DNA from: Achromobacter denitrificans NBRC 15125
GTDB taxonomy: Bacteria; Pseudomonadota; Gammaproteobacteria; Burkholderiales; Burkholderiaceae_B
Assembly (NCBI RefSeq): GCF_001571365.1
Contig: NZ_BCTQ01000025.1
Location: 1-64,000 of the forward strand
DNA length: 64,000 nucleotides
Reading direction: 5' to 3'
Shown piece by piece: positions 2,490 to 13,736 of this stretch. Each line of letters starts with the position of its first letter. The first letter of the stretch is position 1. A program made the position numbers and the translations under genes. A model generated the notes under the pieces. The model was not told the DNA's origin. It saw only the letters and a program-made list of their open reading frames with translations, and made no database searches.

Positions 2490-2513
2490 CGAAATATATA
2501 TAGGTATATAACG
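2490..2513. promoter_or_regulatory. Candidate ModE box upstream of modA
   Basis: The 24-bp element is CGAAATATA, six bases, TATATAACG. The right half is a perfect TATATAACG and the left half differs from its mirror image at two positions. From memory, proteobacterial ModE boxes are TATATAACG-type inverted repeats with about six central bases. It sits 34 bp before the modA start, where a repressor would cover the promoter. No modE gene is in the window. Confidence 0.6.
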
Positions 2514-2568
2514 CCCGTCAATTTGACCGGACCGGGAGGCATTGAGGAATATCAAGAAGCGGCGGCGC

Positions 2569-2919
2569 TCAGCCGCGCTCTACGGTGGTGACGCGGACCG
2601 ATTCCGGCGCCAGCCGCGCCCGCAGCCGCTCCAGCGCGAGCTCCGGACGGGCCGCGCCGCACATGAAGATGTCCAGCGCCGCGTAGCGGTGCTCGGGCCA
2701 GGAATGGATGCTGATGTGGGATTCGCTCAGCATGACCACGCCGGTGACGCCGGCGCCGGCGCCGAAATGATGGAAATGGGCGCTCAGCACGCGCGCGCCC
2801 GCGGCCTGCGCGGCCTCGACCATTCCGCGCTCCAGCGCCTGCGGATCGGCGAGCAGGTCCGCCCGCACGCCGCTGAAGTCGGCCAGCAGGTGGCGGCCGG
2901 TCGTGGCGTGCGCGGTCAC
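2569..2919 (-). CDS. speD: S-adenosylmethionine decarboxylase proenzyme (SpeD)
   Basis: This pyruvoyl enzyme makes decarboxylated S-adenosylmethionine, the aminopropyl donor for spermidine. The bacterial small SpeD signature is clear: SESHISIHSWPEH contains the Glu-Ser self-cleavage site that creates the pyruvoyl group, followed by the conserved cysteine in DIFMCG. The opening GRHLLADFSG is also typical. I chose the GTG at 2919 because it overlaps the preceding small gene's stop as GTGA. An ATG at 2943 would add eight residues read from the Gly-rich gene's overlap. At about 116 residues it fits the family. It is the last gene of a five-gene leftward operon whose divergent partner encodes a spermidine synthase-like protein. 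Confidence 0.92.
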   Translation of the reverse strand: MTAHATTGRHLLADFSGVRADLLADPQALERGMVEAAQAAGARVLSAHFHHFGAGAGVTGVVMLSESHISIHSWPEHRYAALDIFMCGAARPELALERLRARLAPESVRVTTVERG

Positions 2920-3080
2920 TTGTGGGACCCGCCCGACGACCATCCCGAGCCGCCGGAGCTGCCGCCCCAGCTGCTGCCGCCGCCGCTGCCGCCGCTGACG
3001 AAGCCGCCGCCCGTGGAACTCGCGCCCGTGGCGGCCAGCACGACCACCACGGCATAGATGGCATACAGGAGCTTGCCCAT
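2916..3080 (-). CDS. Small Gly/Ser-rich membrane peptide, unknown function
   Basis: This 54-residue gene runs from the ATG at 3080 to the TGA at 2916. It has one hydrophobic segment (LLYAIYAVVVVLAATGA, about residues 4-20) followed by a low-complexity Gly/Ser tail with Trp (GGSGGGSSWGGSSGGSGW) ending in SHK. It starts 4 bp after the DUF4178 gene and its stop overlaps the speD GTG start, so it sits exactly in an operon slot with translational coupling on one side. I do not recognise a family. The anchor-plus-flexible-tail layout suggests a small membrane-associated partner of the cluster (inference). Confidence 0.65.
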   Translation of the reverse strand: MGKLLYAIYAVVVVLAATGASSTGGGFVSGGSGGGSSWGGSSGGSGWSSGGSHK

Positions 3081-3084
3081 CGCC

Positions 3085-4554
3085 CTATTCGTCCTTGCCG
3101 GAAAATTTGTCCGCCAGCGTGGCGGGGAACCAGAGGAACGCCATGCCGATCAGAATGGGGATGAAGCGTCCGCTGAAGATATTGCCCAGGTTCAGGAAGC
3201 CCAGCGCGATCATCGCCGTCCAGGCCCACTTGCGGTAGCCGCCGCCCTGGCCGCCGCGCGGCATGGCTTTCTGCTTGGCCAGTTCGGGGTCGCCGAACCA
3301 CTCGGCCAGCTGCGCCGGCGCCACCGGGCCCGACGCCGACCAGCCCAGCTCGGTGTCGCTCAGTTCGCGGGTCAGCTTGAGGTTGCCGGCCTTGTAGTCG
3401 GTGATCTTGGTGCTGTCGCCCGCCTTCACGCGCCAGTTGAAGGCGCCCAGCGCCAGTTCGACGCGCGAGGTGTAGTCGTACAGCTTGTGGTACAGCTTGG
3501 AGCGCCAGCGCACGCTGGTCGCGTTGTTATGGCTGGGCCAGGCGTCGCAGACCTGCACCCGCTCCCAGCCTTCGTCCGACTCCACCAGCCAGAGAAAGCC
3601 CTTGGCCGGGTTGAACAACAGGTACTCGATCCAGTCCGAGGGTTCCTCGGGATCCGGGTCGGCGCATTTCATCAGGCCGATGAGCGTGTAGGCGGCGCCC
3701 TCGATCCGGGCCTGCGCGCCCAGCGCCAGCGTGGTCTTGATCGCCTTGACCTTGCGGGCCTTTTCGATGACCTCGGCCGTGGGGCCCGAGCAATCCACCG
3801 CCGCCGCGCACGAGGGGCAGACCACCTGCGTGGCCATGGCGGCCACGAAGCTTATCGGGCCGCCGCAATTGGGGCAGGCCAGCGCCTTGATCTGGCCGCG
3901 GAAACGGCCCGCGGTTTCCTCCACCTGCTCGGCGCTGCGCAGGGAGGCCGCCTGCATGGCGGACAGATCGAAGGCCTTGCCGATGTAGAGCTCGGGATCG
4001 GGGCCGTCGGAAAAGTCCAGCGTCAGGAACGCGTCCAGGCTGCGGAAGTCCGCCACCTTCGCCTGCCAGCCGTCGCCGGGAACGAAGGGCAGTTCGCCCT
4101 GCGCCCCGCCGGCCTGGCTGATCCGCACGTCGGCCGCGGTGAAGCGCTGGCCGTCCAGCTTCAGTTCGTCGCCCGGCGCGATGTCCTCGAACGCGGGCAT
4201 GCCCTGCGCGGCCTTGACCTTGCGGCGCCGGGTGACGGCATACTGGCCGGACGCATCGGACAGCCAGCCGTCGGAACCGTCCTCGAACCACAGGTACCAC
4301 TCGTTCCAGAAGCCTTCGCCGTAGCGCAGCTGGAAGCGGCCGATGACGTCGAAGCGCTTGCCTTCGTGTTTGCCCGCCGCGCCCAGGCACAGGGGCGAAT
4401 AGTCTTCCAGGACGTCGGCCATCTCGCCGATGCGTCGGACCGAGTCCGCGTCCTTGAGCAAGGTGCTGCGGCAGGCGCCGCAGACCGCCATCACGGAGGC
4501 CGTGGACGTGAACTTGACGGGAGCGCCGCACTGCGGACACAAAACCTGTTGCAT
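3085..4554 (-). CDS. DUF4178 protein with two zinc ribbons and C-terminal membrane segments
   Basis: The protein has 489 residues. Two treble-clef-like zinc ribbons are visible: CPQCG...CGAC at residues 6-28 and CPNCGG...CPSC near 225-247. Each is followed by a beta-rich segment with WNEWYLWFEDGSDGWL or DWIEYLLFNPAKGFLWLVE, the pattern I associate with DUF4178. The C terminus has two hydrophobic segments (about 445-480) that would anchor it in the inner membrane. The family has no settled biochemistry but recurs with polyamine genes, SPFH and DUF350 proteins. It is separated from the SPFH gene by 15 bp and from the Gly-rich gene by 4 bp, so they are co-transcribed. Confidence 0.85.
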   Translation of the reverse strand: MQQVLCPQCGAPVKFTSTASVMAVCGACRSTLLKDADSVRRIGEMADVLEDYSPLCLGAAGKHEGKRFDVIGRFQLRYGEGFWNEWYLWFEDGSDGWLSDASGQYAVTRRRKVKAAQGMPAFEDIAPGDELKLDGQRFTAADVRISQAGGAQGELPFVPGDGWQAKVADFRSLDAFLTLDFSDGPDPELYIGKAFDLSAMQAASLRSAEQVEETAGRFRGQIKALACPNCGGPISFVAAMATQVVCPSCAAAVDCSGPTAEVIEKARKVKAIKTTLALGAQARIEGAAYTLIGLMKCADPDPEEPSDWIEYLLFNPAKGFLWLVESDEGWERVQVCDAWPSHNNATSVRWRSKLYHKLYDYTSRVELALGAFNWRVKAGDSTKITDYKAGNLKLTRELSDTELGWSASGPVAPAQLAEWFGDPELAKQKAMPRGGQGGGYRKWAWTAMIALGFLNLGNIFSGRFIPILIGMAFLWFPATLADKFSGKDE

Positions 4555-4569
4555 TAGGGGCGGTTCACG

Positions 4570-5586
4570 CTAGTTGGTGAGTTTCTTCAGCACTTCGGCC
4601 TTGGCCGCGTCGTAGTCGGCGGCCGTGATCAAGCCCTTGTCGAGCAAGTCCTTGAGCTGCTGCAGGCGCTGCACCGGATCGGCGCCCGCGGCGGCGGGCT
4701 GGGCGGCCGGCTGGGCCGGCTGGCCCTGCGCCGCGCCCAGCCCTTGCGCCATGGTCTGCCCCAGCGCCGCGCCCGCCGCCAGGCCCGCGCCGATGCCGGC
4801 GATGCCGCCTTCGTTCTGGGCCGCCAGCGGGATCGAGGTTGCGGTCTGGTACTGGGTGAACTTGCCCAGGTCCCCCGCCATGCCCATCGAGATCCGCGTG
4901 TCCAGCGCCTTCTGCAGTTCTTCCGGCAGCGAGACGTTCTCCACCGTGAAGTTGTCCAGCCGGACGCCATAGCGCTCGAACACCGGCCCGAGCTGCTCGC
5001 CGATGCTCTGCGACATCAGCCCCTGGTTGCCGGCGATGTCCAGGAACGGCACCTTGGAGCCGCCCAGCGCGGTGGTCATGGCCGCGACCACCATATTGCG
5101 CAGCTGCGCCTCCAGGTCGTCGACGGTGTATTCGTCGCGCGTGCCGCTGACTTCGCGGTAGAACTTGCCCGGATCGGAGATCTGGTACGAATACACGCCG
5201 AAGGCGCGCAGCCGCACCATGCCGAATTCGCTGTCGCGCAGCGTGACCGGCTGCGCCGTGCCCCAGCGCCGCCCCAGCTGCAGGCGCGTGCTGAAGAAGA
5301 TGACGTCCGACTTGAAGGGGGATTCGAACAGCTTGTCCCAATTCTTCAGGTAAGTCAGGATCGGCAGCGTCTGCGTGGTGAGCTTGTACATGCCGGGGCC
5401 GAACACGTCGGCCACCTTGCCTTCGTTGACGAACACCGCCATCTGCGATTCGCGCACCGTCAGGCTGGCGCCGTACTGGATTTCGAAATCCTGCATCGGA
5501 TGGCGCCAGGCGAGCACGCCGTCGCGATCCTCGTTCCATTGCAGGATGTCGATGAACTGCTTGCGGATGAATGAACCGAGACTCAT
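4570..5586 (-). CDS. SPFH/band-7-like protein with C-terminal SHOCT domain
   Basis: This 338-residue protein resembles the virion-core/YdjI-type SPFH proteins that assemble on membranes. Residues about 30-240 form the SPFH-like region (SLTVRESQMAVFVNEGKVADVFGPG, LRAFGVYSYQI, VSLPEELQKALD). A Gly/Ala-rich stretch follows (about 255-300) and then a SHOCT motif, RLQQLKDLLDKGLITAADYDAAKAEVL, at the end. There is no clear signal peptide. In the operon it follows the DUF350 gene by 43 bp and precedes DUF4178. The likely role is a membrane scaffold for the cluster (inference); the sequence does not show an enzymatic site. Confidence 0.85.
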   Translation of the reverse strand: MSLGSFIRKQFIDILQWNEDRDGVLAWRHPMQDFEIQYGASLTVRESQMAVFVNEGKVADVFGPGMYKLTTQTLPILTYLKNWDKLFESPFKSDVIFFSTRLQLGRRWGTAQPVTLRDSEFGMVRLRAFGVYSYQISDPGKFYREVSGTRDEYTVDDLEAQLRNMVVAAMTTALGGSKVPFLDIAGNQGLMSQSIGEQLGPVFERYGVRLDNFTVENVSLPEELQKALDTRISMGMAGDLGKFTQYQTATSIPLAAQNEGGIAGIGAGLAAGAALGQTMAQGLGAAQGQPAQPAAQPAAAGADPVQRLQQLKDLLDKGLITAADYDAAKAEVLKKLTN

Positions 5587-5629
5587 GGAAATTCCTCCTG
5601 TCGGATCGGAGTCGGCGCGCCTGCCGGGA

Positions 5630-6028
5630 TCAGGTCAGGCAGGCGGCGTTGACGATGCCGGCGGCGATCGAGATCGAGCCGATCAGGCCGCCCATGGCGA
5701 TGTTGTTTTCCTCGATGGCGTCGTTCATGCCGTGGATGGCGCGCGCCACGACCACGTACACGATGATCTGGACCAGCATGGCGGCCAGGCCCCACACGAG
5801 GAACATGGCGAAGCTGGCGTGCACCGCGATGCTGGAGCACAAGGTGAAGCTGAAGCCCACCAGCGCGCCGCCGTAGGACAGCATGGCGGCGATGTTGCCT
5901 TCGCGGATGAGCTCGAATTCCCGGTAGCGCGTGACGGCGGTATAGACCGCGGTGAAGACGCCCAGCATGGCGAGCGCCGACGCCATATAGATCAGATAAG
6001 TCACCGCCGGATGCATCGCTTCTCCCAT
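5630..6028 (-). CDS. DUF350 (YjfL-like) inner-membrane protein
   Basis: This 132-residue protein has four predicted membrane segments (about 9-28, 48-68, 74-96 and 110-131). The loops EFELIREGNIAAMLSYGGALVGF and HGMNDAIEENNIAMGGLIGSISIAAGI match the internal repeat of DUF350 proteins such as YjfL. Start codons at 6028 and 6016 are both possible. It is the first gene of the leftward operon and lies 77 bp from the divergent spermidine synthase gene, sharing the palindromic promoter region at 6048-6079. Function is unknown in the family, which recurs beside spermidine and glutathionylspermidine-type enzymes. Confidence 0.88.
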   Translation of the reverse strand: MGEAMHPAVTYLIYMASALAMLGVFTAVYTAVTRYREFELIREGNIAAMLSYGGALVGFSFTLCSSIAVHASFAMFLVWGLAAMLVQIIVYVVVARAIHGMNDAIEENNIAMGGLIGSISIAAGIVNAACLT

Positions 6029-6047
6029 AGCCAGGCTCCTGATTGCG

Positions 6048-6079
6048 CGCAGTATATACGCCGCCTTCGATATACTGCG
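6048..6079. promoter_or_regulatory. Symmetric divergent promoter/operator palindrome
   Basis: A perfect 10-bp inverted repeat, CGCAGTATAT, a 12-bp spacer, then ATATACTGCG, sits midway between the divergent DUF350 and spermidine synthase genes. Each arm contains TATACT reading outward on its own strand, a good -10 hexamer, so the element could be two overlapping mirror-image promoters, a dimeric repressor site, or both. It lies 27-58 bp before the rightward ATG and 20-51 bp before the leftward one. No regulator gene is adjacent. Confidence 0.6.
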
Positions 6080-6105
6080 AACGCATTTTTCGTGTCGGAC
6101 ACTCC

Positions 6106-7617
6106 ATGCGCGACCGCGTTCTCATCCTCTCGGTATTGATCGTCGCCTCCTGCGGTTTGGGCTATGAGCTCATCAGCAGCGCGCTCGCCAGCTATTTGCT
6201 GGGGGATTCCATCCTCCAGTTCTCGTCCGTCATCGGCTGCTATCTGTTCGCCATGGGCATCGGATCGTGGTTGTCAAAATATGTAAAAGACGAAGACGTT
6301 TTGAATCGCTTCATCGACGTGGAGCTGCTGGTCGCGCTGCTGGGCGGCGTGTCGGCCGCGGTGCTGTTCCTCGTCTTCGCGTGGCTCTCGGCGCCTTTCC
6401 GCGCCGCCCTCTACGTGGGAGTCTTCATCATCGGCCTGATGGTCGGCATGGAGATTCCGCTGGTGATGCGCGTATTCAACCAGCGCAAGGCCGAATTCCG
6501 CGAAATCGTCAGTCGCGTGCTGACCTTCGACTACCTGGGCGCGCTGGCCGTATCGCTGGTGTTCCCCCTGCTGCTCGCGCCCAAGCTGGGGCTGCTGCGC
6601 ACCAGCTTCCTGTTCGGCATCCTGAACGCCAGCGTGGCGCTGTGGACCACCTGGCTGTTCCGCGCCGAGGTGCGCCGGCCCGGCGAACGCGCCATCCGCG
6701 CCTGCGTGGTGATCGGGCTGCTGGGCCTGGGCTTCCTGTATTCCGGCAGCATGACGGCCTGGGCGGAAAAGGGCCTGTACGGCGACGAAGTCGTGCATGC
6801 CGAGACCACGCCGTACCAGCGCCTCGTGGTGACGCGCTGGCACGACGACCTGCGCCTGTACATCAACGGCAACCTGCAATTCTCCTCGCGCGACGAGCAC
6901 CGCTACCACGAGTCGCTGGTGCATCCCGGCCTGCAGGCCCTGCCCTGGGCGCGCAACGTGCTGGTGCTGGGCGGCGGCGACGGCCTGGCGGTGCGCGAGG
7001 TGCTGAAGCACAAGCAGGTGGAGCGCGTGACGCTGGTGGACCTGGACCCGGCCATGACCGGCCTGTTCTCCCGCTCCGAACCGCTGACGCGGCTGAACGG
7101 CGGGTCCCTGAAGGACCCGCGCGTCACCGTCATCAACGACGACGCCGGCCGCTGGCTGGAAACCCACGCCGAGGTCTACGACTTCATCGTCGTGGACTTC
7201 CCCGACCCCTCCAACTTCGGCCTGGGCCGCCTGTACTCGGTGCCCGTCTACCACCTGATGGCGCGCCACCTGGCGGAAAACGGCTACCTGGTCGTGCAGT
7301 CCACCTCGCCCTATTTCGCGCCGCGCTCCTTCTGGAGCGTGGACGCCACCCTCAAGGAAGCCGGCCTGAACACCTGGCCCTACCACGCCTACGTGCCTTC
7401 CTTCGGCGACTGGGGCTTCATCCTGGCGGGCAAGCGCAAGGACTACGCGCCCCCCACAGCCATCACCGTGAACACGCGCTACCTGGATCCCGCGACGATG
7501 CGCGAGCTGTTCCACTTCCCGGCCGACATGCCGGCGCTCGCGATGCCGCCCAACCGCTTGAATGAGCAGTCGCTCGTGCGTTACTTCGACGAGGACTGGC
7601 GCCAGGTCATCCGCTGA
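6106..7617 (+). CDS. Membrane-fused spermidine synthase-like aminopropyltransferase
   Basis: Residues 1 to about 210 form a multi-pass membrane domain of roughly six or seven hydrophobic segments, beginning with VLILSVLIVASCGLGYELISS. Residues about 230-490 are a spermidine synthase domain with the nucleotide motif GGGDG at 289-293, VDLDPA for the ribose, and VVDFPDPSNFGLGRLYS holding the putative catalytic aspartate. The start is the ATG at 6106; upstream in-frame codons fall in the promoter palindrome. At 503 residues it is about twice the size of SpeE but normal for the membrane-fused class. SpeD, which makes its co-substrate, is in the divergent operon. It overlaps the next gene by one base. 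Confidence 0.88.
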   Translation: MRDRVLILSVLIVASCGLGYELISSALASYLLGDSILQFSSVIGCYLFAMGIGSWLSKYVKDEDVLNRFIDVELLVALLGGVSAAVLFLVFAWLSAPFRAALYVGVFIIGLMVGMEIPLVMRVFNQRKAEFREIVSRVLTFDYLGALAVSLVFPLLLAPKLGLLRTSFLFGILNASVALWTTWLFRAEVRRPGERAIRACVVIGLLGLGFLYSGSMTAWAEKGLYGDEVVHAETTPYQRLVVTRWHDDLRLYINGNLQFSSRDEHRYHESLVHPGLQALPWARNVLVLGGGDGLAVREVLKHKQVERVTLVDLDPAMTGLFSRSEPLTRLNGGSLKDPRVTVINDDAGRWLETHAEVYDFIVVDFPDPSNFGLGRLYSVPVYHLMARHLAENGYLVVQSTSPYFAPRSFWSVDATLKEAGLNTWPYHAYVPSFGDWGFILAGKRKDYAPPTAITVNTRYLDPATMRELFHFPADMPALAMPPNRLNEQSLVRYFDEDWRQVIR

Positions 7618-9257
7618 TGCGCCGCCGCAGCTTCCTCCTGGGCACGGCCACGGCCGGCGCCGCCGGCGCCGCCGGCTACTGGCGTTCGCGCATCGTCGAG
7701 ACCACGCCGGAGGTCCTGTATCCCGGCATGCGGGCCGGCCACGCCCTGCGCGACGGCGCCGCCTGGCCGCAACCCGCGGCGGCCCGCCGCCACGGCGTGG
7801 CGATCCTGGGCTCGGGCGTCGCGGGCCTGTCCTGCGCCTGGAAACTGGCGCGCGAGGGCTATGCCGACTTCGTCGTGGTGCAGGGCCCCGAGTTCGGCGG
7901 CAACGCGGCCGCCGGCCGGCGCGAGGGCCTGGACTATCCGCGCGGCGCGCACTACCTGCCGCTGCCGTCGCTGGCGTCCTCGCACGTGCGCGAGATGCTG
8001 GCCGACTTCGGCATCATCGAACGCGGCGCGGGCGAGGTCCGGCCGTACTACGACGAGGCCGTGCTGGCGCATTCGCCCCAGGAGCGGTTGTTGCGGGACG
8101 GCCGCTGGGAAGACGCGCTGCTGCCCCTGGCCGGCCTGCCCGAAGCGGACCTGGCGCAGCACCGCCGCTTCCTGGATCGGGTGGAGCGCCTGCGCGCCGA
8201 AACCGGCAGCGACGGCCGCAAGGTCTTCTGCATTCCGCTCGCCCTGTCCTCGCGCGATCCGGCCTGGCGCGCGCTGGACGCGATCACGTTCAAGCAATGG
8301 CTGGACCGGGAAGGCTATTCGTCGCCCGCGCTGCACTGGTACCTGGACTACTGCTGCCGCGACGATTACGGCGCGCGCTACGACGCGGTCTCGGCCTGGG
8401 CCGGGCTGCATTATTTCGCCAGCCGCGACGGGCACGCCGCCAACGCGGGCGAAGGCGCGGTGTTGACCTGGCCGGGCGGCCTGTCGGCGCTGGCCGGCAA
8501 ACTGCGCGACGCGATCACGCGCAAGCTCGGCCATGCCGGCTGGCTGGTCGAGGGCACCGCCGTGCAGCTGCGGGACACGCCGGCCGGCCCGCTGGTCACC
8601 TGCCTCGCGCCCGGCCCCGCGGCCACCGCCTATACCGTGCAGGCCCGCCGCGCGGTGTGCGCCATGCCGCTGTTCGTGGCCCAGCGCATCCTGCCCGACA
8701 TCCGCGCCTATGGCTACGATCCCGCCGTGCACGCGTCCTCGCACGCCCCCTGGATGGTGTCGAACTTTCTCATGGACGGCTATCCCCGGGAGGCGCCCGG
8801 CGAGCCGCTGTCCTGGGATAACGTGGTCTACGGCGGCCGCGCCCTGGGCTACGTCGTGTCCACGCATCAACTGCTGCGCGTGGCTCCCTCGCCGCGCACC
8901 GTGTTCACGGCCTACCACGCGCTCAGCGGCCAGAGCCCGCGCGCCGCGCGCGACTGGCTCGCCGCCGCCAGCCCCGAGGCCTTGCGCGCGGAAGCCGCGG
9001 CCGACCTGATCGCCGCCTACGGCAAGGAATTCTGGCGGCATGCGCGGGCGCTGGAGATCACGGTGCGAGGCCATGCCATGGCCTCGCCGCTTTGCGGCTA
9101 CCTGTCCAATCCGGGGCTGGCCGCGCTGCGCGAGGTGGACGGCCCGGTGCTGTTCGCGCACGCCGACCTGTCCGGCTATTCCGTGTTCGAGGAAGCCGCC
9201 TGGTGGGGCGTCGTGGCGGCGGGCAGGATACTCGGCCAGGCGCCCCCGCAAACCTGA
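7617..9257 (+). CDS. Secreted FAD-dependent amine-oxidase-like protein
   Basis: The 546-residue protein starts with RRRSFLLGTATAGAAGAAGY, a twin-arginine-like signal, and then has a Rossmann dinucleotide fold AILGSGVAGLSCAWKL at about 62-78. Further conserved stretches are YPRGAHYLPLPS and, at the C terminus, HADLSGYSVFEEAAWWG, the usual closing FAD-contact region of amine oxidase/phytoene desaturase-like flavoproteins. It is translationally coupled to the spermidine synthase gene (TGATG). Tat export implies folding with FAD before transport. An obvious hypothesis is oxidation of a polyamine or polyamine conjugate on the periplasmic side. The substrate is not readable from the sequence. Confidence 0.8.
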   Translation: MRRRSFLLGTATAGAAGAAGYWRSRIVETTPEVLYPGMRAGHALRDGAAWPQPAAARRHGVAILGSGVAGLSCAWKLAREGYADFVVVQGPEFGGNAAAGRREGLDYPRGAHYLPLPSLASSHVREMLADFGIIERGAGEVRPYYDEAVLAHSPQERLLRDGRWEDALLPLAGLPEADLAQHRRFLDRVERLRAETGSDGRKVFCIPLALSSRDPAWRALDAITFKQWLDREGYSSPALHWYLDYCCRDDYGARYDAVSAWAGLHYFASRDGHAANAGEGAVLTWPGGLSALAGKLRDAITRKLGHAGWLVEGTAVQLRDTPAGPLVTCLAPGPAATAYTVQARRAVCAMPLFVAQRILPDIRAYGYDPAVHASSHAPWMVSNFLMDGYPREAPGEPLSWDNVVYGGRALGYVVSTHQLLRVAPSPRTVFTAYHALSGQSPRAARDWLAAASPEALRAEAAADLIAAYGKEFWRHARALEITVRGHAMASPLCGYLSNPGLAALREVDGPVLFAHADLSGYSVFEEAAWWGVVAAGRILGQAPPQT

Positions 9258-9349
9258 GGAAAGCGGCCTTCGCGCGCCCGCCGCTGCAATACAATTCGGC
9301 GTCCCCGCCGGCGACACGGCGGCCTTTGGCGGAACTCGGGTGGAACCCT

Positions 9350-10597
9350 ATGGGAAAGCAGGTCATCGTCCTCGGCGCGGGCATCGTCGGCGTGTGCTGC
9401 GCGCTTGAGCTATCGCGCCGGGGCATGTCGGTCACGCTGGTCGACCGGCAGGAACCCGGCCGCGAGACCTCGCTGGGCAATGCCGGCGTGATCGCCCGCA
9501 GCTCGCTCATGCCTTTCAACCACCCCGGCCTGTGGGGGCAATTGCCGCGGCTCCTGAGGAACGACACCGTCCAGTTCCGCTACCGGTGGCGCTACCTGGC
9601 CGCCAACCTGGGCTGGGCCACCCGCTTTCTCCTCAATGCCCGCCCCGCGGTCTTCAAGGAAACCGTGACGGCCCTGGACGGCCTGATCCGCCTGTCCGTG
9701 CCCGAGCACCTGCGCCTGCTGGACGAGGCCGGCGCCGCGCACCGGCTGCGCGATACCGGCTGGATGCTGCTGTACCGCTCGGAGCAGGCCTGGAACGGCG
9801 GCGAACTGGCGCGCAGGACCTACGCGCGGCACCAAGTGCCGGCGCAGGCCTTGAACGCCGCCGAGCTGGCCGAGCTCGAACCCGCGCTGTCGCCCATCTT
9901 CCCCCGGGCGCTGTGGATCCAGGGCTCGTATTCCGTGGACGATCCGCACGAAGTCACGGCGGCCTACGCCGAGCTGTTCCGCCGCCGCGGCGGCGCCTTC
10001 GTCCGGATGGATGCCGGCGAGATCCGCCGCGACGGCCCGCGCTGGACGGTCCGGGGCCGGGAGGCATCCGCGTCGCTGTCGGCGGACCAATTGGTGGTGG
10101 CGCTGGGCCCCTGGTCCAAGGGTCTGCTGAAAACGGCCGGCATAGCCCTGCCCCTGGCGTTCGAGCGGGGCTATCACATGCACTACAGCGGCCTGGAAGG
10201 CGCGAGCCTGTCGCGCCCGGTGCACGATACGGGCGGCGGCTACGTGCTGTCGCCCATGGCCCGCGGCCTGCGGCTGACCACGGGCGTGGAACTGGCCGAC
10301 TGCGAGGCCCCCGCCCGGCCCGACCAGCTGGAACTGGCCGAGGCGCGCGCCCGCGAGGCCTTCCCGCTGGATCGGCGGCTGGACCGGGAAGCCTGGCTGG
10401 GCCGGCGCCCCACCCTGCCCGACAGCCGCCCGATGATCGGGCAGGCGCCGCGCCATCCGGGGCTGTGGCTGGCGCTGGGGCACCAGCACATCGGCTTCAG
10501 CACCGCGCCGGGCACGGCCCGCGTCCTGGGGGAACTCATGGGCGAGGAAGGCGGCGCGGCGCGCCACGCGGCCTTCCGGCCGGGGCGCTTTCTGTAG
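9350..10597 (+). CDS. D-amino-acid dehydrogenase-like FAD oxidoreductase (DadA family)
   Basis: The 415-residue protein begins directly with an FAD Rossmann motif, VIVLGAGIVGVCCALELSRRG, and shows DadA-like features: DRQEPGRETSLGNAGVIA near residue 35, ERGYHMHY in the substrate domain and LGRRPTLPDSRPMIG plus ALGHQHIGFSTAPGTA at the C terminus. DadA enzymes oxidise D-amino acids to keto acids and pass electrons to the respiratory chain. The start ATG at 9350 is chosen because the preceding in-frame residues are the shadow of the upstream gene. It is 92 bp after the FAD oxidoreductase and may be a separate unit. Substrate (D-alanine or another) is uncertain. Confidence 0.85.
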   Translation: MGKQVIVLGAGIVGVCCALELSRRGMSVTLVDRQEPGRETSLGNAGVIARSSLMPFNHPGLWGQLPRLLRNDTVQFRYRWRYLAANLGWATRFLLNARPAVFKETVTALDGLIRLSVPEHLRLLDEAGAAHRLRDTGWMLLYRSEQAWNGGELARRTYARHQVPAQALNAAELAELEPALSPIFPRALWIQGSYSVDDPHEVTAAYAELFRRRGGAFVRMDAGEIRRDGPRWTVRGREASASLSADQLVVALGPWSKGLLKTAGIALPLAFERGYHMHYSGLEGASLSRPVHDTGGGYVLSPMARGLRLTTGVELADCEAPARPDQLELAEARAREAFPLDRRLDREAWLGRRPTLPDSRPMIGQAPRHPGLWLALGHQHIGFSTAPGTARVLGELMGEEGGAARHAAFRPGRFL

Positions 10598-10651: not shown

Positions 10652-11446
10652 TCAACCCAGCAGCAGCGCGTCGTCGGAGATCTTCTCGCCGCGCACGCGC
10701 TCGAACATGGCCAGCAGGTCGGGCACGTCCATGCCGCGGCGTTCCTCGCCCGACACGTCCAGCACCACCTGCCCCTGGTGCAGCATCACCGTGCGATCGC
10801 CCACGTCCAGCGCCTGGCGCATGCTGTGCGTCACCATCATGGTGGTCAGGCGGCTTTCCGACACGATGCGCGCCGTCAGCTGCAGCACGAAATCCGCGGT
10901 GCGCGGATCCAGCGCCGCCGTGTGCTCGTCGAGCAGCAGGATGCGCGAGGGCTGCAGCGCCGCCATCAGCAGGCTGACCGCCTGGCGCTGGCCGCCGGAC
11001 AGCAGGCCGATGCGATCGGCCAGGCGGTTTTCCAGGCCCAGGCCCAGCGTGGCCAGGCGCTCGCGGAACCCCTCGCGCATCGACGCCTTGACCGCGCGGC
11101 TGTAGCCGCGGCGGGCGCCGCGCATCTGCGCCAGCGCCATGTTCTCTTCGATGGTCAGGTCTTCGCAGGTGCCGGCCATGGGGTCCTGGAACACGCGGGC
11201 CACGCTGCCCGCGCGCGCCCACACGGGCTGGCGGGTGACGTCCACGCCATTGATATCGATGCGGCCCGAGTCGACCGACAGGTCGCCCGACACCGCATTG
11301 AGGAAGGTGGACTTGCCGGCGCCGTTGGAACCGATGACGGTCACGAACTGGCCCGACGGGATTTCCAGAGACAGGCCGCGCAGCGCGCGAGTCTCGATGG
11401 GCGTCCCGGCATTGAAAGTGATTTTGAGATCTTTAGCGGACAACAT
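10652..11446 (-). CDS. ABC transporter ATP-binding protein (TrpZ-like)
   Basis: The 264-residue ATPase has Walker A GSNGAGKS near residues 39-46, a Q-loop in FQDPMAGTCEDLTI, signature LLSGGQRQAVSLLMA, Walker B LLLDEHTAALD (His after the catalytic Glu, as is usual in this subgroup) and H-loop TH in MMVTHS. This DEHTAALDP variant is typical of ATPases paired with the TrpX/TrpY-type importer (PF04392 receptor). The permease gene is 57 bp upstream. The transported substrate is unknown; tryptophan, tyrosine and thiamine-precursor transporters all belong to this family. Confidence 0.87.
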   Translation of the reverse strand: MLSAKDLKITFNAGTPIETRALRGLSLEIPSGQFVTVIGSNGAGKSTFLNAVSGDLSVDSGRIDINGVDVTRQPVWARAGSVARVFQDPMAGTCEDLTIEENMALAQMRGARRGYSRAVKASMREGFRERLATLGLGLENRLADRIGLLSGGQRQAVSLLMAALQPSRILLLDEHTAALDPRTADFVLQLTARIVSESRLTTMMVTHSMRQALDVGDRTVMLHQGQVVLDVSGEERRGMDVPDLLAMFERVRGEKISDDALLLG

Positions 11447-11503
11447 TTCAGTACTCCATGGTGCAGTCGCGATACCCGCGCCGCAGGCGCTTCGGGGCGG
11501 TGT

Positions 11504-12388
11504 TCACTTCTTTCCCACCAGGCGACGCTTGAGCATCGGGATGACCAGCGCGATCGTGACCAGCACGGCGGTGACGAGGTTCAGGTCCTGCGCCTTCAGG
11601 CCGATGAAGTCGCTGTTGAGCGCCAGCGCGATGAAGAAACGGTAGACGATGGCGCCGATGATGACGGCCAGCGTCGCCAGCACCAGCTTGCGCGAGGGCA
11701 GGATGCTCTCGCCCACGATCACCGCGGCCAGGCCGATCACGATGGTGCCGATGCCCATGGAGATGTCCGACCCGCCCTGCGTCTGGGCGAACAGCGCGCC
11801 GGCCATGGCGACCAGCGCGTTGGACAGCGCCATGCCGCCCAGGATCATGCGGCCGGTGTTCACGCCCTGGGCCCGGGCCATGCGGCCGTTGGAGCCGGTG
11901 GCGCGCACGGCCAGCCCGGTCTGCGTGGCGAAGAACCAGTCCAGCGCGAGCTTGGCCAGGACCACGATGACGGCCAGGATCAGCGGGCGGGCGACGTAGT
12001 CCGACAGCCATTCGGGCTGCAGGATGGTAAACACGGTGGGTTCGGTGATCAGGGGCACGTTGGGCTTGCCCATGATGCGCAGGTTGACCGAGTACAGCGC
12101 GATCATCATCAGGATGCTGGCCAGCAGATCCATGATCTTGAGCTTCACGTTCAGCCAGCCCGTGACCAGGCCCGCGGCGGCGCCGGCGATGGTGGCGACG
12201 ATGGTGGCGAGGAAGGGGTCGATGCCGGCGGCGATCAGCGTGGCACAGACGGCGCCGCCCAGCGGAAAGCTGCCGTCAACGGTCAGGTCGGGGAAGCGCA
12301 GCAGGCGGAACGAGATGAATACGCCCAAGGCCACCAGGCTGAAGATCAGGCCGATCTCCAGCGCGCCCAACAACGAAAACAATGACAT
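11504..12388 (-). CDS. ABC transporter permease (TrpY-like)
   Basis: The 294-residue integral membrane protein has about eight to nine hydrophobic segments, starting LGALEIGLIFSLVALGVFIS. It contains FPDLTVDGSFPLGGAVCA and GLAVRATGSNGRMARAQGVN, the cytoplasmic coupling loop of the branched-chain/TrpY permease fold. One permease gene suggests a homodimeric channel. It lies between the ATPase gene and, 376 bp upstream, the receptor gene. That long gap contains a terminator-like hairpin, so permease and ATPase are probably made at a lower level than the receptor or from their own promoter. Confidence 0.87.
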   Translation of the reverse strand: MSLFSLLGALEIGLIFSLVALGVFISFRLLRFPDLTVDGSFPLGGAVCATLIAAGIDPFLATIVATIAGAAAGLVTGWLNVKLKIMDLLASILMMIALYSVNLRIMGKPNVPLITEPTVFTILQPEWLSDYVARPLILAVIVVLAKLALDWFFATQTGLAVRATGSNGRMARAQGVNTGRMILGGMALSNALVAMAGALFAQTQGGSDISMGIGTIVIGLAAVIVGESILPSRKLVLATLAVIIGAIVYRFFIALALNSDFIGLKAQDLNLVTAVLVTIALVIPMLKRRLVGKK

Positions 12389-12764
12389 GGGTCAAATCCA
12401 GATAAGGTAAGAAACGAGCATATTAAAGAGTTGAAACGTCGGATTTCTTGCGTTCAGGGGTCAGTTTTACCCCAGCTTTCGCAATAAACGTTTCCCAACC
12501 CGTGATTTTCTCTCGTTTCCTGCCAAAGCGCCGCCGCACCGGGCGGCGAAGCCGCCGGCGGGAGTCCGGGACCGGTCAGGAAGCAGGAATGCCAAGCGCC
12601 GCGCCGCGTGGGCCGGACCGCCAGGCCATTCAAAACCAGCGCATCGCGCCGGGCCGCGAGCATCTCGTGAACGCTGCCGCCCTGAGGACCTTTGGGTAAG
12701 ACAAAAACTCAAGAAAAACCCCGCTCACGCCGGGTAGGCATGGCGGGGCGGGTACGGTCTCGAT
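12389..12764. other. 376-bp gap inside the TrpXYZ-type gene set
   Basis: The gap holds, in transcription order (minus strand), the terminator at 12711-12749 after the receptor gene, a GC hairpin at 12542-12556 (GGCGGC, GAA, GCCGCC), and an A/T-richer stretch at about 12420-12480 that could carry a promoter for the permease gene. Reading frames of 69-83 codons here lack recognisable content and good ribosome sites, so I do not call a gene. Confidence 0.5.
12711..12749 (-). terminator. Intrinsic terminator after the TrpX-like receptor gene
   Basis: On the minus strand a stem CCCCGC/GCGGGG (12743-12748 with 12719-12724) is followed directly by a TTTTTCTT run. It lies 16 bp after the receptor stop codon and before the permease gene, so it should truncate most transcripts after the receptor. 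Confidence 0.65.
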
Positions 12765-13736
12765 TTACTTCACGACCACCGCGGCCGACTTGATCAGCGC
12801 GTCGGGCAGCGTCACGCCTTGCTTGGCGGCGGCGCCCGGGTTCACGTAGAGCTCAAGCTTGGAGCTGGTTTCCGAGGGAATGGCGCCCGGCTTCTCGCCC
12901 TTCAGGATGCGCACCACGATCTTGCCCGTCTGCACGCCGAGGTCGCGGTAGTTGATGCCCAGGGCGGCGATGCCGCCGCGCTTGACGCTGTCGGTGTCGG
13001 ACGCGATCAGCGGGATCTTGGCGTCGTTGCCGACCTTGACCAGCGATTCGTAGGCCGACACGACGTTGTTGTCGGTATTGGTGTAGATGACGTCGACCTT
13101 GCCGATCAGGCTGCGGGCGGCGGAAGCCACGTCCACCGAGCGCGGCGCGGCGGCCTCGACCAGGCTCATGCCCGACTTGGGCAGGATTTCCTGCAGCTTC
13201 TTCACAACCACGACCGAGTTGGCCTCGCCCGGGTTGTAGACCATGCCCACGCGCTTGGCGTTGGGGACGATCTTCTTGATCAGCTCGACCTGCTTGTCCA
13301 GGGCCAGCAGGTCCGACACGCCGGTCACGTTGGTGCCCGAGGCGTCCATGCTGGAGACCAGCTGGGCCGCGACCGGATCGGTCACGGCGGAGTACACCAC
13401 CGGCACGTCCTTCGTGGCGGCCACGACGGCCTGCGCCGACGGCGTGGCGATCGCGACGATGGCATCGGGCTTGTCGCCCACGAATTTGCGGGCGATCTGC
13501 GCGGCGGTGCCGTTGTTGCCCTGGGCGCTCTGGTATTGCCACTTCAGGTTCTTGCCCGGCTCGTAGCCAGCCTGCTTCAGGGCGTCCTGGACGCCGTCAC
13601 GCACGGCGTCCAGCGCCGGGTGCTCGACGATGGCGGTGACCGCCACCGATTTTTGCTGCGCAGCCACGGGCGCGGCGATAGCCATCGCCAGTGCCATGGC
13701 GCCAACCGTCAGAAAATGTTTTTTTCCGATCAGCAT
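12765..13736 (-). CDS. ABC transporter substrate-binding protein (TrpX-like, PF04392 type)
   Basis: The 323-residue periplasmic receptor has a signal peptide ending in PVAAQ (about residue 26). Then come AVTAIVEHPALDAVRDGVQDALKQAGYEPG and VAIATPSAQAVVAATKDVPVVYSAVTDPVAA, hallmark blocks of the uncharacterised ABC_sub_bind (TrpX/YkfA-like) family. Later TNTDNNVVSAYESLV and GINYRDLGVQTGKIVVRILKGEKP complete the two-lobed fold. It is the first gene of the transporter set. The family includes tryptophan and tyrosine receptors, and the ligand here is undetermined. Confidence 0.9.
   Translation of the reverse strand: MLIGKKHFLTVGAMALAMAIAAPVAAQQKSVAVTAIVEHPALDAVRDGVQDALKQAGYEPGKNLKWQYQSAQGNNGTAAQIARKFVGDKPDAIVAIATPSAQAVVAATKDVPVVYSAVTDPVAAQLVSSMDASGTNVTGVSDLLALDKQVELIKKIVPNAKRVGMVYNPGEANSVVVVKKLQEILPKSGMSLVEAAAPRSVDVASAARSLIGKVDVIYTNTDNNVVSAYESLVKVGNDAKIPLIASDTDSVKRGGIAALGINYRDLGVQTGKIVVRILKGEKPGAIPSETSSKLELYVNPGAAAKQGVTLPDALIKSAAVVVK

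Follow-up and report, generated by a model that had tools for sequence, protein, structure and literature searches.

A divergent cluster of polyamine-type and membrane genes

The first 64,000 nucleotides of contig NZ_BCTQ01000025.1 from Achromobacter denitrificans NBRC 15125 (assembly GCF_001571365.1), here called the window, carry at positions 2569 to 9257 seven genes that diverge from one intergenic region and set polyamine-type enzymes among membrane proteins. One of them encodes a 54-residue peptide whose C-terminal lysine we propose as the acceptor of an aminopropyl group. On the minus strand, outward from the shared region, are genes for a DUF350 membrane protein (5630..6028; 109.4 bits, the sole DUF350 match in the genome); an SPFH protein with a C-terminal SHOCT domain (4570..5586; Band_7_1 253.5 bits, SHOCT 30.6 bits); a DUF4178 protein (3085..4554; 93.9 bits in two matched stretches, plus weak zinc-ribbon matches); the 54-residue peptide, Gly-Ser in character, membrane-bound or secreted, ending ...WSSGGSHK (2916..3080); and SpeD, the S-adenosylmethionine (AdoMet) decarboxylase (2569..2943; AdoMet_dc 124.7 bits, TIGR03330 124.2). 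On the plus strand lie a seven-transmembrane (7TM) domain fused to a spermidine-synthase-like aminopropyltransferase domain, referred to below as the fusion (6106..7617), and a flavin adenine dinucleotide (FAD) amine-oxidase-like protein with a twin-arginine translocation (Tat) signal, motif RRRSFL (7617..9257). Pfam and NCBIfam searches uphold the family assignments of six of the seven products and gave no match for the peptide; together with the open reading frames (ORFs) they confirm the gene content, order and coordinates given in an earlier note on this DNA. No phage record matched positions 2500-9300 of the window by megablast.

The DUF4178 protein consists of two zinc-ribbon plus beta-rich domains and C-terminal helices, and its AlphaFold2 (AF2) model has a predicted local distance difference test (pLDDT) score of 88.1. 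It had no credible fold match in the PDB: the 50 Foldseek rows were chance-like (template-modelling score to the query at most 0.12), and we make no claim from the RseB/MucB rows among them.

The association of these genes is kept across bacteria. The fusion scores above cut-off in 44 of 398 phylum genomes and DUF4178 is found in 26 of the 398, all 26 within the 44. Named loci were drawn from a scan of genome contigs as the best 80 of 560 relatives; DUF4178 lies near the fusion in 64 of these best 80, and elsewhere in the genome for 15 of the other 16. The order annotated independently in Novosphingobium sp. ES2-1 (SPFH, DUF4178, DUF4178, a 48-residue hypothetical protein, DUF350, aminopropyltransferase, FAD, speD) is an example, and its 48-residue protein ends GPSHK.

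A lysine-ended tail recurs beside DUF4178 and the fusion

Of the unusual features of the cluster, the C-terminus of the peptide is the best conserved, and the earlier note passed it over. The peptide is a real gene. It is present in 27 of 28 Achromobacter loci (26 loci of the genus, locus L106, which is 94% identical to that of the window, and the window itself), the exception, L050, being a 4.5-kb contig. Over its last 10 codons the encoded residue changes only at position -3 (Ser in 25, Phe in 2), while most of the ten vary synonymously among Achromobacter genomes; the terminal lysine codon (2919..2921, minus strand) is AAG in 26 and AAA in one of 27 genomes.

A fixed rule was then applied to loci with a long DUF4178 gene and a fusion, with ORFs of at least 350 codons as controls. 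A K-terminal tail was found in 93 of 95 such loci, on 77 small membrane-like ORFs immediately downstream and on 16 of the DUF4178 proteins themselves, the residue before the terminal lysine being H in 72, G in 16, V in 3 and I in 2. The two misses are L104, where the contig ends, and L142, which has a VFHK-ended peptide farther off. These tails were picked by their K end, and the 95 loci include Achromobacter relatives that are not independent, so that the fair figures are those of the control and of the follow-up sets. The same test was passed after 13 of 1167 other long ORFs of the same loci, five of them with HK or GK, and 55 of the 1167 control ORFs end in K themselves.

Because the rule itself selects for K, further genomes were tested. 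Where DUF4178 lies away from the fusion, a K end was present in 12 of the 13 testable members of a 16-genome set (15 hold DUF4178 elsewhere, the L159 genome being the one that does not; G452 and G463 were not scorable, and G465 was read by eye). Of the 18 genomes that have the fusion and no Pfam DUF4178, 15 have a tail protein with a K end beside DUF350 or the fusion, 11 of these being recognized by rule and four (G152, G362, G320, G168) by eye; the rule, HK or GK after a G/S/R-rich stretch, marks 11 of the 236 ORFs at those loci, and each of the 11 is a tail protein. Among the named loci the K end is found in 63 of 64 (HK 47, GK 16), and these span, by record titles, Proteobacteria, Acidobacteria, Gemmatimonadetes, Bacteroidota, Leptospiraceae, Fibrobacteres and Verrucomicrobiota.

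The carriers of the tail differ. It may end a peptide of about 45-70 residues, a DUF4178 membrane protein, as in loci of the Comamonadaceae type, or a lipoprotein of about 300 residues, as in many PspA-type loci. In 70 of the 93 tails the terminal lysine is the only one beyond the membrane core. Three other accounts of it were set aside: a GHK-type copper site, which is said to require a free N-terminal Gly; a plain Gly-Ser linker, since many tails are not Gly-Ser-rich and still end in K; and constraint from overlap with speD, since tails with no speD downstream share the same end. We found no Lys-ended tail of this kind in print in a search of titles and abstracts on these gene families and on aminopropylation, most full texts lying outside that search.

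In most tail peptides from Acidobacteria and Gemmatimonadetes the K end is preceded by a second motif, approximately P-x-S-[VI]-R-x-N-P-G-x-Y-R (L141, L145-L147, L149-L152, L154, L157, L158, L161, L162, L164, L167, L172).

The fusion enzyme retains an intact aminopropyltransferase site

The fusion scores 706.8 bits with NF002956, 'polyamine aminopropyltransferase' (cut-off 472), and its AF2 model has a pLDDT of 90.4. Its soluble domain is an aminopropyltransferase by sequence and by fold (Z 35.5 to 3anx/1uir, Thermus PAPT). In 81 homologues the residues of the DxPDP, YH and GGGDG motifs (D364, P366, D367, P368, Y267, H268 and GGGDG) are invariant, and the variants D(F/L)PDP and P(S/A)FGxWG are conserved. 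Ten residues of the membrane part are likewise invariant: Y20, E21, D34, Q38, E116, R122, D142, Y143, R165 and N174. Charged residues held so strictly within the membrane are unusual for a mere anchor and suit the handling of a cation, which we infer to be decarboxylated AdoMet (dcAdoMet).

AdoMet_dc has a single match in the whole genome, and the SpeD sequence carries the pyruvoyl motif, ESHISIHSWPE, intact. Spermine_synth has four matches, the fusion being far the best. The three other SpeE-like proteins, tested nearly whole, fall below the aminopropyltransferase equivalog cut-offs, but two exceed the one for the MFS_SpdSyn subfamily. DcAdoMet could serve these proteins as well, so we claim no exclusive use of it by the cluster.

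Enzyme, tail and oxidase are predicted to share one side of the membrane

Hydropathy gives the membrane part of the fusion seven hydrophobic segments, the seventh among them (mean 2.28, minimum 1.39). The loops assigned to the inside, 58-71, 122-140 and 186-199 (47 residues), average 2.8, 3.7 and 3.3 K/R, and those assigned to the outside, 31-38, 93-100 and 160-167 (24 residues), average 0, 0.9 and 1.4; the inside sum exceeds the outside sum in every one of the 81 homologues (0.21 per residue inside, 0.10 outside). With the N-terminus inside and seven crossings, the aminopropyltransferase domain is predicted, from these sequence properties, to lie on the outer face of the cytoplasmic membrane.

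The tails point the same way. A lipobox is found by pattern in 8 of the 12 PspA-type carriers shown, and those tails are therefore outside; the charge bias of the small peptides favours an inside N-terminus in 50 and an outside one in 5, with 22 tied (n = 77). Of 81 sequences, 78 have an RR motif ahead of the FAD site, in many cases with a lipobox after it as judged by eye, though the pattern was loose and took in translated DNA upstream of the start, so that a few matches may be chance. As lipobox and charge bias, fusion topology and RR motif agree, enzyme, tail and Tat-signal oxidase are most likely on the same side of the membrane.

Translational starts, the divergent promoter region and flanking genes

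The listed ATG of speD (2943) sits inside the peptide gene and gives a 28-nt overlap. The GGA codon that creates this ATG is present in only 3 of 27 genomes. GTG 2919 is the more probable true start; it overlaps the AAG-TGA end of the peptide gene, and the two would be coupled.

Upstream of the fusion start at 6106, in the divergent promoter region, the repeat search found a perfect 10-nt inverted repeat, CGCAGTATAT-N12-ATATACTGCG (6048..6079; arms 6048-6057 and 6070-6079). The earlier note had called this promoter symmetric; the scan for sigma-70 promoters marked no site there. Both arms keep their full 10 nt in 10 of the 12 Achromobacter rows, and the repeat was not seen in the one Burkholderiaceae row with the start located, the comparison covering 15 of 23 rows. 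It may be either an operator or twin -10 elements.

On the minus strand at 305-2555, adjoining the cluster, are ORFs that we named by eye as a ModA-like periplasmic binding protein, a ModB-like permease and a ModC-like ATPase; wherever the flank of an Achromobacter locus is long enough, the ModA-like gene adjoins the cluster there too. Beyond the Tat-FAD gene, at 9350-10597 on the plus strand, is a D-amino-acid-dehydrogenase-like FAD enzyme (by eye) that also stands beside the cluster in Achromobacter loci, and at 10652-13736 on the minus strand an ATP-binding cassette transporter set whose substrate-binding protein is TrpX-like (by eye).

Gly-Gly-ended tails beside peptide-spermidine ligases

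DUF1190 lipoproteins, which also have low-complexity tails, offer a parallel. A GG end is present in 18 of the 27 readable of 28 matches, the 27 including the three weakest (E > 1e-8), none of which is GG-ended. GSP_synth is the longest downstream ORF in 11 of 24 DUF1190 loci, and 10 of these 11 carriers are GG-ended, that of L206 ending SS; the first 10 neighbourhoods were hand-picked from the 24, the remaining 14 were added later, and the downstream side only was read. The genome of the window has no DUF1190 match. The E. coli ligases YgiC and YjfC are called 'peptidylpolyamine synthetases' in a passage of one report (PMC12568646) and peptide-spermidine ligases in the title of Pederick et al. 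2023. A Gly end suits a ligase that attaches spermidine to a C-terminal carboxylate, just as a Lys end suits an aminopropyltransferase, which requires an amine. As an observation in its own right, the DUF1190 lipoproteins of L186-L211 (YgiB/YjfM type), mostly Gly-Gly-ended, are candidate natural substrates of such ligases.

A model for the cluster, and its alternatives

Our proposal, in which we place about as much belief as doubt, is that the cluster serves to modify protein in the envelope, by adding an aminopropyl group to the lysine at the end of an exported tail. It builds on the gene set, the conserved K terminus, the intact catalytic residues and the predicted topology. SpeD would make dcAdoMet in the cytoplasm; beyond this we infer each step, and the acceptor with them. 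The seven-helix domain of the fusion would give dcAdoMet access to the outward aminopropyltransferase domain, which would place a 3-aminopropyl group on the epsilon-amine of the C-terminal lysine of the flexible tail, turning the tail into a membrane-anchored polyamine; the Lys end of the tail speaks for a fixed acceptor of this kind and against a free diamine. The Tat-signal FAD oxidase might then remove or convert the group, and DUF4178, SPFH-SHOCT and DUF350 would form a scaffold in the membrane by which the charged tail is sensed or put to use under envelope stress, a role suggested for the SPFH and DUF4178 proteins by analogy with B. subtilis YdjI. More tentatively still, the fusion may act as a hybrid of transporter and enzyme, delivering dcAdoMet and building outside the membrane a new post-translational modification: C-terminal N-epsilon-(3-aminopropyl)lysine, or a longer chain. 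The whole would then be one branch of a DUF350-linked tail-polyamine logic with Lys ends for aminopropyltransferases and Gly-Gly ends for ligases.

Several points weigh against this proposal. We know of no precedent for export of dcAdoMet and release of methylthioadenosine outside the membrane, and the aminopropylated tail is a proposal from sequence. The conserved lysine could instead serve in binding or sorting. Further lysines are frequent in PspA-type lipoprotein tails, up to seven in the last 40 residues with the terminal one included. K ends are common in the 18-genome set (42 of 236 ORFs); in that set G057 gave no K tail, and in G164 and G052 the fusion stands without cluster genes next to it. 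G458, of the 16-genome set, gave no K tail either. In 13 of the 24 DUF1190 loci the longest downstream ORF is not GSP_synth. The FAD step is the least certain part of the model, the gene being absent from many loci: it is not labelled in the PspA-type loci of the 18-genome set or in L069, L072, L077 and L078, although L182 has it together with PspA. AF2 draws residues 131-184 of the fusion as a single long helix, and the count of seven crossings therefore rests on hydropathy. Finally, lipids or peptidoglycan amines are alternative acceptors.

The last point leads to the rival that we take most seriously, while thinking it improbable: that the outward enzyme passes the aminopropyl group to some other amine of the envelope, such as the head group of a lipid like phosphatidylethanolamine, with the Lys tail serving as a docking, sensing or charge element. 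Such an acceptor would suit an enzyme embedded in the membrane with strongly conserved membrane motifs, SPFH and phage-shock-protein-like (PSP-like) partners that act on membranes, and lipid amines that face the same side as the enzyme; it leaves unexplained both the regular terminal lysine of different carriers and the fact that tails of the sister system, which has the ligase, so often end in GG.

The earlier note held that the cluster makes a polyamine at the membrane and oxidises or conjugates it, possibly in envelope stress. Its polyamine-type enzymes and membrane location stand, and the phrase 'oxidises or conjugates' was right in spirit. That a free polyamine, spermidine or a relative, is the product appears to us very doubtful, even with the catalytic motifs of SpeD and aminopropyltransferase intact and an FAD protein that matches amine oxidase: the fusion scores 128.4 bits with the SpeE model TIGR00417, below its cut-off of 249.55, and the conserved tail would be left without a reason. 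Li and colleagues reportedly found in 2019 that such fusions fail to complement a spermidine-synthase mutant and that the hosts have active AdoMet decarboxylases and no spermidine; since the fusion does not, on that account, replace spermidine synthase, the making of a polyamine is not the best reading.

It is just as doubtful that only six crossings are real and that a cytoplasmic enzyme acts on a cytoplasmic substrate, the tail being a separate envelope sensor, since this arrangement, which would keep substrate and product in the cytoplasm, would agree with the long AF2 helix and would match twelve-helix relatives said to keep their aminopropyltransferase domain inside, has against it the seven hydrophobic segments and the positive-inside bias of every homologue.

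Were the aminopropylated tail confirmed, DUF350, DUF4178 and the SPFH or PspA partners would gain a use, and chemistry derived from AdoMet would occur outside the cytoplasm. The membrane spermidine-synthase fusion is paired with AdoMet decarboxylase in many bacteria, and a K-ended exported tail beside an enzyme predicted to face outward gives this unexplained cluster a concrete candidate substrate. Naming one lysine on one tail as candidate acceptor makes the question directly testable by mass spectrometry. The parallel of Gly-Gly tails and peptide-spermidine ligases suggests a general route to protein-anchored polyamines at the cell envelope.

Relation to known systems

AdoMet decarboxylase homologues are reportedly to be counted in thousands, and clusters of AdoMet decarboxylase, an MFS-SpdSyn fusion and DUF350 are said to have been described by Li and colleagues, who proposed an acceptor other than putrescine and left its identity open. 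The window has the same three genes, an AdoMet decarboxylase with intact site, the fusion and DUF350, together with DUF4178, and the present analysis names a candidate acceptor. The C-terminal domain of the fusion has its fold and catalytic motif in common with spermidine synthase and PAPT (1uir, 3anx), which lack its membrane domain; that of the fusion is predicted outside and has motif variants.

Most of the gene set is already in print. The passages of Ravi et al. (2024; PMC11237479) concerned with PspA/CesT operons describe a single operon that holds, as here, DUF350, DUF4178 and a 7TM-spermidine-synthase-like fusion, with a 'novel lipoprotein', and, with reference to Li et al. 2019, suggest 'aminopropylation of other substrates'. 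Their 7TM label agrees with our count of seven segments, and the PSP-like partners bear out the envelope-stress setting suggested in the earlier note. The window has no match to PspA or CesT; SPFH-SHOCT takes their place, and SpeD and the FAD gene are added. The same passages describe a band-7-SHOCT variant within an ATP-grasp-ligase group, in which a band-7-SHOCT protein, AdoMet decarboxylase and polyamine oxidase replace the PspA dyad. That group is centred on a glutathionylspermidine-synthetase-like ligase, and Pfam finds none among the seven genes of the cluster. The precise combination in the window (SPFH-SHOCT, DUF4178, fusion, SpeD, FAD) is not set out in these passages, yet it clearly belongs with the operons that they describe. 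In them neither a Lys-ended tail nor an outward-facing enzyme is mentioned; the 'novel lipoprotein' is probably the K-tail carrier of those loci.

In B. subtilis, YdjI, of the SPFH system, needs YdjG and YdjH for recruitment to the membrane (PMC8581546, in the part concerned). The pspA-ydjGHI operon thus has an SPFH protein held at the membrane by integral partners under envelope stress, as we propose here, but no polyamine enzymes are named for it in that part of the report. E. coli yjfIJKLMC and ygiBC likewise place an exported low-complexity tail beside a polyamine-type enzyme and include a DUF350 relative, YjfL; there, however, the enzyme is a ligase and not an aminopropyltransferase, and the DUF1190 tail ends mostly in GG and not in K.

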